Part shown: one piece after another, positions 16,701-62,627 of the stretch
Numbering within the stretch: the first letter of the stretch is position 1
How the letters are laid out: each line of letters opens with the position of its first letter
Assembly (NCBI RefSeq): GCF_001528665.1
Contig: NZ_BBYJ01000024.1
Span: 62,001 to 126,000, forward strand
DNA: 64,000 nucleotides
DNA from: Microtetraspora malaysiensis
GTDB lineage: Bacteria; Actinomycetota; Actinomycetes; Streptosporangiales; Streptosporangiaceae
Reading direction: 5' to 3'
Notes under the pieces: generated by a model
The model's database searches: none
Told to the model about the DNA's origin: nothing
What the model saw: the letters and a program-made list of their open reading frames with translations, nothing else
Position numbers and translations under genes: made by a program

Positions 16701-18413
16701 CTACCGCTGGCCGCGCGGGCGCAGTCGCCGCACGACCGCGAACATGGTGGCCGAGGCGGCGAACAGGGCGCCCAGGGCCAGGGCGATCAGGGAGCCGGGG
16801 TTCATCCCGGTCACGCCGACCGGCTGCTCGGCGCTCATCAGGCCGAGGTTGCCGAGCGGGAGGACGTCGGTGGCCCCGCCGAGGGAGTTCGCGACGGGCA
16901 GCGAGCCGACCAGACCGGTCACCGGGGCGAGCGCCCCGGCGGCGCCGCCCTTGCCCGCGGCCGGCCGGGCCGGCGACGCGGCGGCGGTGGGCAGCAGGCC
17001 GCTGTCCGGAACGCCGGGGACCATCGGCAGCGCGGAGAGCATCCCGCTCGTGTGCACCTTGTGCGCGCCCTTGCGGGCCTTCTTGTTCCAGGTGCCGTGC
17101 CAGTTCGTGCGGCCGTGGTCCTGGCCGCCCACGCTCGCGCCACCGAGGCATCCGGCGGCGGCGTCGCCCAGAACGGCGACGGCGTTGCCGCACAGGTTGA
17201 TGGGCGCGGTGATCGGGGCGACGATCTGGTTGCCGCCCAGGATGCTCTGCGCGCCGCTCGTCACGTTGCGACCGCCCCCGGTGCCGCCGGTGACGGAAGC
17301 TCCGCCCTTGCAGCCGGCCTTGGCGTCGCCGAGCACGGCCACGGCGTTGCCGCAGACATTGATCGGCGCGGTGATCGGCGCCACGATCTGGTTGCCGCCC
17401 AGGATGCTCTGCGCGCCGCTCGTCACGTTGTGGCCGGCGCCGTTGCCCCTGCCGCCGCCGCTCACCGAAGCGCCGCCCTTGCACCCGGAGAAGGCGTCAC
17501 CCAGGACGCCGACCGAGTTGCCGCACAGGTTGATCGGCGCCGTGATCGGAGCCACCACCTGGTTGCCGCCCAGGATCGAGGAACGTCCCGAGGTGATGTT
17601 GCCGCCTACGCCCGAGCCGCCGGAGTTCTTGACGGACGTGCCACCCGCGCACCCGGCTCGGCCGTTGCCGACGGCGTTGCCGCAGACATTGATCGGCGCG
17701 GTGATCGGCGCCACGATCTGGTTCCCGCCGAGGATGCCGTGCTCACCACTCGTGATGTTGCCGCCGGCGCCGCCGCCGCTCCAGTGGCCCCGGCCGCGGC
17801 CGCGGTAGCCCTTGCCACCACCCTTGCCGCCCTTGCCGCCGCCGCTCACCGAAGCGCCGCCCGTGCACCCGGAGAACGCCTCACCGAGGACGCCGACCGA
17901 GTTGCCGCACAGGTTGATCGGCGCCGTGATCGGAGCCACCACCTGGTTGCCGCCCAGGATCGAGGAACGGCCGGAGGTCCGGTTGCCGCCGGCACCCGAG
18001 CCGCCGGAGTTCTTGACGGACGCCCCGCCCTTGCACCCCGCGGTGGCGTCACCGAAGATCGCGATCGCGTTCCCGCAGGCGTTGATCGGCGCGGTGATCG
18101 GGGCGACGATCTGGTTGCCGCCGAGGATGCTGTTCTCGCCGTTCGTGGTGTTGCCGCCGGCGCCTCCGCCGGAGCCGCCCCGGCCGCTGTCGACGACCGC
18201 CGCCCCGCCCCGCGAGGAGGCGGTCGAGTCACCGAGGACGCCGACCGCGTTGCCGCTGATGTCGATCGGAAGCGAGATGGGGAGGTTGAGCTGGTTGCCT
18301 CCGCCGATCGAGCCGCGGCCGTCGGTGTCGGCGAAAGCCGTACCGCCACCGAGGGACAGGACACCGACGGCGAGAAGCGCCACGGGGGTCGAACCCTTCG
18401 CCCACGTTCGCAT
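16701..18413 (-). CDS. chaplin-like multi-repeat secreted protein
   Basis: A 570-residue exported protein: signal peptide (about 1-28, cleaved near AFA-DTD), seven repeats of about 30 residues with core GGNQ(I/V)VAPITAPIN-x-CGN(A/S)V, Gly/Ser-rich spacers, a Pro/Ala-rich region, and a C-terminal hydrophobic helix ending in RRLRPRGQR. Six repeats have two Cys each (CGN and GC-x-GG), the pattern of Streptomyces chaplins, which are amyloid-forming surfactants of aerial hyphae. Known long chaplins have two domains, so seven is unusual. No clear LAxTG sorting signal is seen before the helix. The ATG at 18411-18413 has TAGGAG upstream. Confidence 0.8.
   Translation of the reverse strand: MRTWAKGSTPVALLAVGVLSLGGGTAFADTDGRGSIGGGNQLNLPISLPIDISGNAVGVLGDSTASSRGGAAVVDSGRGGSGGGAGGNTTNGENSILGGNQIVAPITAPINACGNAIAIFGDATAGCKGGASVKNSGGSGAGGNRTSGRSSILGGNQVVAPITAPINLCGNSVGVLGEAFSGCTGGASVSGGGKGGKGGGKGYRGRGRGHWSGGGAGGNITSGEHGILGGNQIVAPITAPINVCGNAVGNGRAGCAGGTSVKNSGGSGVGGNITSGRSSILGGNQVVAPITAPINLCGNSVGVLGDAFSGCKGGASVSGGGRGNGAGHNVTSGAQSILGGNQIVAPITAPINVCGNAVAVLGDAKAGCKGGASVTGGTGGGRNVTSGAQSILGGNQIVAPITAPINLCGNAVAVLGDAAAGCLGGASVGGQDHGRTNWHGTWNKKARKGAHKVHTSGMLSALPMVPGVPDSGLLPTAAASPARPAAGKGGAAGALAPVTGLVGSLPVANSLGGATDVLPLGNLGLMSAEQPVGVTGMNPGSLIALALGALFAASATMFAVVRRLRPRGQR
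17154..18310 (-). repeat. seven chaplin-like repeats within the coding sequence
   Basis: Approximate copies on the minus strand: 18225-18310 (no Cys, diverged), 18050-18130, 17880-17965, 17670-17740 (shortened), 17500-17580, 17330-17416, 17154-17250. Copies near 17520-17590 and 17910-17980 are almost identical at nucleotide level, which suggests recent duplication or gene conversion; two spacer types alternate. Confidence 0.8.
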
Positions 18414-18637
18414 GATGGATGCTCCTAGGTTTTCTGGGGGATTACCTGACGGGCTCATGACGGAGTGCGGCCGGGCACAGCGAGGCCGTGGGCCGTCATG
18501 AGTGATTGGGAAAAGAAACTCGCGTCCACCCGCACGGAGCCGCGCAGACGATACGACTCAGAGGAGTCGAGGCCGTCGCAGGGCGCGCTCCGCCACCGGT
18601 CCGACGTTCGATGAGCAGGACCGGCGCGATGGCGGGA

Positions 18638-19210
18638 TCAGTCCGGCGAGATGGATGGGTCGTCCGCCGCTGTGCGCACGACCGGGGGAAGGACTGCCGC
18701 GCAAGGTGCGGGCAGCGCCACGAGCCGCACGTCGGAGATAGAACGTGCGACGTCCCCGAACAGAATGGATCCACCGCTCCCCTGGGGGACCATGCCCTGG
18801 CTCCCTGGGGTGTGATCGGCGGTGGACGGTGATGGGAAACCGGGCTTCGACTGACTCGTCAGCCCGTCGACATTGCGCCCGGCCATCGCTTCGGCGTTGA
18901 CCGACGCGTCGTCAGTCGTGGGGAAACCGTCGGCCCTCGTGGAGGCACCACCCTCGACGACCGACCCGATGACGCCCGCTGAGGGGACCGCGTCGGCACT
19001 GGCCGGGGCCGCGCCGAAGACGCCGAAGATCACACCGAGCACCCACGCGGCGGCGACGAATCCGCAGACGATCAGAAAGCGGACCACACGCGAACCGGCC
19101 GCGAACCGCGCGACCCGGCTGCGCTCGCCGACCTCGGAAGCAATCGCGGGCACGCACGGGTCGGCGGCGGGCATCTCTGCCCGCGACCGCTCGTCCGGCG
19201 TGCGTGCCAC
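18638..19210 (-). CDS. exported or membrane-anchored protein of unknown function
   Basis: A 190-residue protein with a charged N-terminus (1-42), one hydrophobic segment (about 43-68, ending in APASA, a possible signal-peptidase site) and a Gly/Ser/Pro-rich low-complexity outer part. No family recognised. GGGAGG lies four bases before the GTG start at 19208-19210. It sits just upstream of the chaplin-like gene on the same strand with about 225 bases between, so a shared role at the cell surface is possible but not shown. Confidence 0.6.
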   Translation of the reverse strand: MARTPDERSRAEMPAADPCVPAIASEVGERSRVARFAAGSRVVRFLIVCGFVAAAWVLGVIFGVFGAAPASADAVPSAGVIGSVVEGGASTRADGFPTTDDASVNAEAMAGRNVDGLTSQSKPGFPSPSTADHTPGSQGMVPQGSGGSILFGDVARSISDVRLVALPAPCAAVLPPVVRTAADDPSISPD

Positions 19211-61771: not shown

Positions 61772-62627
61772 GGCGTACCAGCACTGCGAACAGATCATGC
61801 GAAGGAACGCGCGCAACTTCTCCTACGGCCTCCGGCTGCTGCCGGCGCCCAAGCGCCGCGCGCTGAGCGCGGTCTACGCGTTCGCCCGCCGCATCGACGA
61901 CATCGCCGACGGCCACGGCCCGGCGGGCGCGCGACTGGCCCGGCTGAACGCGGCCAGGGAGGCGCTGGACGGCCCGCCGGGCCCGCGCGCGGACGGGAAC
62001 GAGGACCTCGTACTGGTCGCGCTGCACGACGCCGCGCGGCGCTACCCGCTGCCGCTCGCCGCGTTCGGCGAGCTGATCGACGGGTGCGCCGCCGACGTGC
62101 GCGGCACGACGTACGCGCGCTTCGACGAGCTGCTCGCCTACTGCCGGTGCGTCGCCGGGTCGATCGGGCGGCTCTCGCTCGGCGTCTTCGGCGCCGACGA
62201 CCCGGAGGCGGCGACGCCGCTCGCCGACGCGCTCGGCGTCGCCCTCCAGATCACCAACATCCTCAGGGACGTGCGCGAGGACCGGCTGGCCGGGCGCATC
62301 TACCTGCCGATCGAGGACCTGGAACGGTTCGGCTGCACGCTGGAGCTCGACGGCGCCGGCCGGTTCACCGACCCGCCGCACCGGCTGGTCACGCTCATCC
62401 GGTACGAGGCCGTACGCGCCCGCGAGTGGTTCGCGGACGGGATGCGCCTGCTGCCCGTGCTGGACGCCCGCAGCGCGGCCTGCACGGCGGCCATGGCCGG
62501 GATCTACCGGTGCCTGCTCGACCGCATCGCGGCCGACCCGACCATGGCGCTGACCGCGCGGCTATCGCTGCCGCCCTGGGCGAAGGCCATGGTGGCGGCG
62601 CGCGCGCTCGCGGGGGCGGGCCGATGA
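61758..62627 (+). CDS. hpnD: presqualene diphosphate synthase HpnD
   Basis: A 289-residue paralogue of HpnC with FARRIDDIADG and NILRDVREDRLAGRIYLP, the intact Asp-rich diphosphate/Mg sites; SYGLRLLP lies near the N-terminus. It condenses two farnesyl diphosphates to presqualene diphosphate. The GTG start lies 14 bases inside hpnC; the stop overlaps hpnE (ATGA). Confidence 0.93.
   Translation: MGVPEAYQHCEQIMRRNARNFSYGLRLLPAPKRRALSAVYAFARRIDDIADGHGPAGARLARLNAAREALDGPPGPRADGNEDLVLVALHDAARRYPLPLAAFGELIDGCAADVRGTTYARFDELLAYCRCVAGSIGRLSLGVFGADDPEAATPLADALGVALQITNILRDVREDRLAGRIYLPIEDLERFGCTLELDGAGRFTDPPHRLVTLIRYEAVRAREWFADGMRLLPVLDARSAACTAAMAGIYRCLLDRIAADPTMALTARLSLPPWAKAMVAARALAGAGR

Follow-up and report, generated by a model that had tools for sequence, protein, structure and literature searches.

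A seven-domain chaplin, the sole detected chaplin gene of Microtetraspora malaysiensis, with a conserved membrane-type tail and a structured leader

Analysis of a 64,000-nucleotide stretch of the Microtetraspora malaysiensis genome (the window; positions 62,001 to 126,000 of contig NZ_BBYJ01000024.1) revealed a gene, here named polychaplin, whose product carries seven chaplin domains in one chain and which is the sole chaplin gene detected in this genome. Chaplins are water-repellent coat proteins known mainly from Streptomyces, and Microtetraspora is a genus of soil actinomycetes. We read polychaplin as a surface chaplin whose domains would assemble into a hydrophobic, amyloid-like coat and whose tail would hold the chain to the cell, and we give this reading a probability of roughly 0.7. 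Comparison with related genomes shows that polychaplin is a real feature and that a multi-domain chaplin chain is the norm among its relatives in Streptosporangiaceae. Sequence features support an exported protein with chaplin domains and a membrane-type tail; disulphide loops, fibres, the coat and its developmental timing are proposed by analogy with Streptomyces. Features of the locus are listed in Table 1.

Table 1. Features of the polychaplin locus (positions in the window; residues counted on the polychaplin chain)
Feature	Position	Strand	Basis or remark
DUF5703 small protein, 60 aa	16329-16511	+	PF18963, E 1.2e-24; convergent with the polychaplin gene
Polychaplin coding sequence	16701..18413	-	Open frame, 570 aa and stop; PF03777 in seven stretches
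C-terminal membrane helix, residues 539-563, then Arg-rich tail	16725..16799	-	Model helix; conserved RR.R
VGVTG, candidate degenerate sorting pentapeptide, residues 532-536	16806..16820	-	Aligns with LPVTG/LPLTG of other genera
Chaplin domain 7, two Cys, residues ~389-427	17133..17249	-	Profile match, Cys count
Chaplin domain 6, two Cys, residues ~335-373	17295..17411	-	Profile match, Cys count
Chaplin domain 5, two Cys, residues ~278-316	17466..17582	-	Profile match, Cys count
Chaplin domain 4, two Cys, short Cys-Cys loop, residues ~225-259	17637..17741	-	Profile match, Cys count
Chaplin domain 3, two Cys, residues ~150-188	17850..17966	-	Profile match, Cys count
Chaplin domain 2, two Cys, residues ~94-132	18018..18134	-	Profile match, Cys count
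Chaplin domain 1, no Cys, residues ~34-72	18198..18314	-	PF03777; Cys-free in relatives with the N-terminus present
Putative signal peptide MRTWAKGSTPVALLAVGVLSLGGGTAFA, residues 1-28	18330..18413	-	By eye, MRTWAKG...AFA then D; model helix 10-20
Conserved structured leader, probable 5' UTR	18414..18502	-	Pair counts, alignment-free helix test, covariance model
Leader helix P1, 3' strand GTCATGAG	18454..18461	-	Pair counts, helix test
Leader helix P1, 5' strand CTCATGAC	18495..18502	-	Pair counts, helix test
Upstream gene, 190 aa, predicted exported or membrane protein	18638..19210	-	Syntenic in 75/80 loci

The polychaplin coding sequence opens with an ATG that has AGGAG ahead of it, giving the N-terminus MRTWAKG. 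A further in-frame ATG upstream, at 18458, was not taken for the start codon because it lies inside helix P1 of the leader and is missing from most relatives. PF03777 (ChpA-C, chaplin) was the single Pfam-A family found on the product, with E = 2.6e-36 and 123.7 bits for the whole protein against a curated cut-off of 21 bits. Each of the seven domains alone also exceeded the cut-off in a genome-wide search with PF03777 (E of 4e-6 to 8e-4), and these values show that the seven chaplin domains are real and far beyond chance. The profile search thus confirmed the chaplin-like identity proposed in a preliminary description of this DNA made from its letters. NCBIfam profiles gave no match to polychaplin. 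Exactly seven PF03777 matches above the cut-off were found in the source genome (8.8 Mb, 99.7% complete, 53 contigs), all inside the polychaplin gene, and no second chaplin gene, short chaplins included, was detected with this one Pfam model.

Analysis of the domains revealed a Cys-free first unit, GGNQLNLPISLPIDISGN, with zero cysteines, in which the GN motifs are kept and serine replaces both cysteines (ISGN, ASSR). Domains 2 to 7 each contain GN motifs and exactly two cysteines, in agreement with the earlier count of seven repeats, six of them with two cysteines. Domains 3 and 5, and likewise 6 and 7, are near-identical (97% over 30 residues), and at the DNA level the array consists of tandem repeats of 162 and 384 bases. 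These pairs bear out one part of the earlier proposal of two alternating repeat types, but domains 1, 2 and 4 are position-specific and do not fit it. The unit with the short Cys-Cys loop, domain 4 of polychaplin, was also found mid-array in the other genera looked at. The domain array is followed by a linker and then the tail GLMSAEQPVGVTGMNPGSLIALALGALFAASATMFAVVRRLRPRGQR. In the putative signal peptide, residues M1, R2, T3, W4 and K6 are invariant among 24 aligned sequences. An AlphaFold2 model built from the 24-sequence alignment predicts short beta strands in each domain, disordered linkers and a terminal helix; it is of low confidence overall (mean pLDDT 49) and silent on fibres. The signal peptide recognised by eye and the predicted helix fit the exported chain with a C-terminal membrane-like helix described earlier. 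No solved structure with a sequence relation to polychaplin was found.

A scan of named genomes yielded 80 loci, making 81 sequences with polychaplin itself. The nearest relatives are those of Microtetraspora fusca, Microtetraspora glauca, Microtetraspora niveoalba and Microtetraspora sp. NBRC 16547, with 76-87% identity in the best segment. Counted with a profile built from the repeats of polychaplin itself, the 81 sequences carry 4 to 10 domains per chain; eight is the most frequent number (48 of 81), and the ten domains of the Nonomuraea indica chain form the largest array seen. A Cys-free domain first and two-Cys domains after it is a nearly universal plan in this set, the exceptions being one fragment without a start, one incomplete chain with two Cys-free units and one domain with a third cysteine. 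The gene adjoins topA in 79 of the 80 named Streptosporangiaceae relatives, with topA and the small DUF5703 gene lying downstream of it in 79 of the 80 loci. The 190-residue protein encoded upstream has one N-terminal hydrophobic segment, a nearly invariant C-terminus (..VVRTAAD(D/E)PS(F/I)SPD, or ..PPVVRTAADDPS(F/I)SPD) and no Pfam or NCBIfam family; it is possibly a partner of polychaplin. The common plan and the fixed topA-linked locus among relatives show that polychaplin is not a one-strain oddity, and the gene is apparently old, vertically inherited and confined to a single locus. Chaplin domains were present in 159 of 200 sampled genomes of the GTDB family.

All chaplin domains detected in the source genome sit in one gene, and its inter-domain linkers are Gly-rich and predicted to be disordered, as would suit a polyprotein that is cut in the linkers after export to release single-domain chaplins. 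Such cleavage would account for the lack of detected short chaplin genes. We nevertheless consider it very unlikely: no conserved motif for cleavage was seen among the linkers, the strong conservation of the tail and of the first domain points to a chain used whole, and some relatives possess short chaplin-sized frames in addition to a polychaplin-type gene.

Comparison of the C-termini revealed a common tail in 77 of the 81 sequences, made up of LMSAxxP, xGxTG (or DSITG), M (MN), a membrane helix and RR.R, with threonine at the scissile position of xGxTG in nearly all tails. This tail is missing from three Actinoallomurus relatives, and none of its type was found on other proteins of the source genome. 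The Streptomyces-type LAXTG or LPXTG does not occur before the helix of polychaplin; VGVTG stands there instead, with Thr-Gly kept and P4 and P3 different. Four-domain chaplins from other genera of the GTDB family carry LPVTG, LPLTG or LAVTG with a helix and a basic tail at the equivalent place, and for this reason VGVTG was read as a sorting signal with its first two residues changed. We conclude that the xGxTG tail would anchor the chain in the membrane and that it contains a sorting signal which has degenerated. The earlier statement that the chain ends without a recognisable sorting motif holds for LPXTG and LAXTG, but the conserved xGxTG does occupy the sorting-signal position. Another candidate, LAPVTG some 40 residues before the helix, was set aside because it does not adjoin the membrane segment. 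The tails of Bailinhaonella and of locus L134 are one residue shorter, and read PGLTGM where others have PxGxTGM; in the genome of L134 no class E sortase scored above the cut-off.

The class E sortases that anchor Streptomyces long chaplins prefer LAXTG, and acceptance of both Ala and Pro at P3 by SrtE1 indicates that its S3 site tolerates some variation (PMC5148588). Class E anchoring, as in the Streptomyces long chaplins, has no counterpart among the sortases of the source genome: all five scored above the class F model cut-off (the N-terminal letters of the fifth query were partly arbitrary and lay outside the matched region), and no class E score exceeded 24.7 bits, where the cut-off is 160. 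A class E sortase is present in four other Microtetraspora genomes, and its absence from the source genome could be a recent loss or a gap in this assembly of 53 contigs and 99.7% completeness. Because no class E sortase was found there, retention of polychaplin in the membrane is its likelier, and probable, state in the source genome; this adds an argument to the membrane-held chain of the preliminary description, which is plausible. Where relatives encode a class E sortase, this enzyme may join their xGxTG tail to the wall.

A rather unlikely alternative is that VGVTG works as it stands and that polychaplin is covalently linked to peptidoglycan, by class E sortases in the relatives and by class F here. 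In its position, its Thr-Gly pair and the helix and Arg tail behind it, VGVTG resembles sorting signals, among them the LPVTG/LPLTG with which it aligns, and the latitude of SrtE1 at P3 points the same way, but Gly at P3 and Ala or Val at P4 lie outside the described LPXTG/LAXTG signals. Class E sortases scored above the cut-off in 148 of 200 family genomes, and a strong xGxTG-type tail (E <= about 1e-11) was found in 85 of the 200, 21 of these without class E. The scissile threonine was lost from 7 of 21 tails without class E and from 5 of 60 with it, which by genome (p = 0.011) favours anchoring by a sortase; however, the association is gone when genera are counted once (6/16 vs 3/11, p = 0.69) and is not claimed, and threonine is kept in 14 of the 21 genomes without class E. 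Against a class F link speaks the finding that in Actinoplanes the class E, not the class F, sortase matters, and that Actinoplanes missouriensis without all four class F sortases has no phenotype (PMC13251363). Next to three of the five class F sortases of the source genome are encoded secreted proteins with the tails GAQTGE, APETGG and GAATGG before a membrane helix, and these are candidate class F substrates.

With membrane retention as the likelier state, the coat may be pictured as follows. Outside the cell, each two-Cys domain would close a disulphide loop and form short beta strands, and hyphae or spores would become covered by a hydrophobic, amyloid-like sheath built from the domains of neighbouring chains. 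Flexible spacing would be provided by the Gly-rich linkers, and attachment of the sheath to the envelope by the C-terminal tail. A single anchored chain with many domains may in this way do the job that Streptomyces splits between anchored long and free short chaplins. Alternatively, polychaplin might be an adhesive or spacer surface protein without amyloid, whose repeats bind surfaces or neighbours and build no water-repellent coat. Some chaplins also aid surface attachment (PMC4255298), but every two-Cys domain of polychaplin retains the cysteines and GN motifs that mark the chaplin family, and we regard this alternative as improbable.

Among the closest known systems are ChpA, ChpB and ChpC of Streptomyces, with which polychaplin shares export, GN motifs, two cysteines, a C-terminal membrane helix and a basic tail. 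Those proteins have two domains and a class E signal, whereas polychaplin has seven (its relatives 4-10), the first of them without cysteine, and carries xGxTG, and its gene has a conserved leader and a topA-linked locus; unlike their setting, the source genome showed no class E sortase and no short chaplins. The four-domain chaplins of other family genera (for example at L014, L015, L021 and L027) likewise combine several domains with a membrane tail, but all four domains are of the two-Cys type, with no Cys-free first unit, and the tail is LPVTG/LPLTG/LAVTG. Their 1.5-kb flanks gave no match to topA, M20 or the upstream gene used as queries, and a class E sortase was present in 11 of the 11 host genomes checked. 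The earlier remark that polychaplin exceeds the Streptomyces long chaplins in domain number is borne out, with seven against two per chain (PMC13251363). CwpA and CwpB of Actinoplanes missouriensis are hydrophobic, SrtE-dependent surface proteins that have been compared with long chaplins, but they have no chaplin domains (PMC13251363). Chaplin-like genes have been listed by reciprocal BLAST in Streptosporangium roseum, Thermobifida fusca and Nocardiopsis dassonvillei, and the available excerpt of that source gives no domain number, tail, locus or leader for them (PMC4255298). A search of the open-access literature on chaplins in Streptosporangiaceae, Nonomuraea, Actinomadura and Streptosporangium, with subscription journals outside this coverage, found neither the architecture nor the leader described.

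Streptomyces coelicolor has eight partly redundant chaplin genes, so single-gene tests of chaplins are hard in that species. A genome seemingly reliant on one multi-domain chaplin gene would make the role of the coat testable with one deletion, and the absence of class E sortase from some genomes that carry the gene amounts to a natural experiment on the need for wall anchoring. The polychaplin protein is typical of its family; interest is added by a chaplin system of one gene, by the lack of a detected class E sortase and by a leader that is not yet catalogued.

The leader consists of the 89 bases directly before the start codon. Reading of 79 upstream regions revealed inverted repeats that differ in sequence with their pairing kept. 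The helices were named by eye, and pair counts, covariance searches and controls by shuffling, sliding and swapping then served to test them, which leaves a little circularity. In the alignment of 24 leaders of the same type as that of polychaplin (A4), P1 is 100% paired across 23 distinct sequences, and seven of its eight pairs vary. The whole structure of 17 pairs shows 8 double-change cells against 1.4 after shuffling, and pairing falls from 91% to 23-38% when the partner is slid by 1-3 columns. Analysis of 21 Nonomuraea-type leaders (A5) gave 93-99% pairing for P1, 90-92% for the inner helices and 17 double-change cells against 4.9 when shuffled. With the conserved TCAGG as anchor, an alignment-free test gave scores of 7 or more for an 8-base helix in 62% of 69 leaders, compared with 5% for shuffled and 35% for swapped upstream regions. 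A covariance model of A4 placed the leader at the equivalent place in other genera and found one copy in the source genome (68.7 bits; next match E = 0.8). Among 61 genomes, 18 contained the leader exactly once; in 16 of these 18 genomes, the source genome among them, the leader precedes the tail by about 1-2.3 kb, with both on one contig and strand, and of the remaining two leaders, one is on a short contig and one in a genome without a tail match. The leader thus shows covarying helices at a constant position ahead of a single gene, as a cis-regulatory RNA would.

The inverted repeat just ahead of the gene might instead be a DNA-level operator for a transcription factor. RNAalifold alone gave weak consensus structures and single-sequence folding energies were mostly no better than those of shuffles, as an operator would allow. 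Yet P1 pairing persists while the sequence changes completely between groups (CTCATGAC, CTCGTGAC, GGTTCGCG, GATCCGCG, GAACCGCG), a pair-preserving double change separates the related Nonomuraea rhodomycinica and Nonomuraea roseoviolacea, and in the Nonomuraea type P1 encloses further helices, all of which makes an operator unlikely. The leader probably sets the timing or the amount of polychaplin made, and the covariation suggests that it would act as RNA, in which case a surface coat would be under the control of a new regulatory element. A bolder version can be put forward tentatively, at less than even odds: that the leader represents a cis-regulatory RNA of a new class, devoted to a single coat gene in Streptosporangiaceae, which senses a signal (a metabolite, a protein or a physical cue), switches polychaplin on and so couples aerial growth or sporulation to that signal, with polychaplin alone replacing the multi-gene chaplins of Streptomyces.

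Rfam gave no match to positions 18300-18800 of the window up to E = 1, and tRNA alone in nine loci of relatives. The ydaO (c-di-AMP) riboswitch before wall-hydrolase genes of Streptomyces is likewise a structured leader of cell-surface genes in a filamentous actinomycete (PMC10117811), but the polychaplin leader matches no Rfam family, ydaO included, and occurs as one copy per genome and not as a regulon. Pairing of the Shine-Dalgarno region with bases 5' of P1, which would mask the ribosome-binding site, scored 4.69 and was not clearly better than in shuffles (4.28) and swaps (4.51). A sigma-BldN-like promoter (CGTAAC..CGTTGA) was sought with a loose pattern upstream of 79 sequences and set aside after one chance-like match. 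Positions 18414-18640 (minus strand) and the corresponding regions of most relatives contain a conserved GCGGGTGA block some 15-25 bases before P1, and Nonomuraea upstream regions have an extra GGCGGAG..CTCCGCC hairpin further upstream; the GCGGGTGA block and the hairpin are possible promoter or operator elements.
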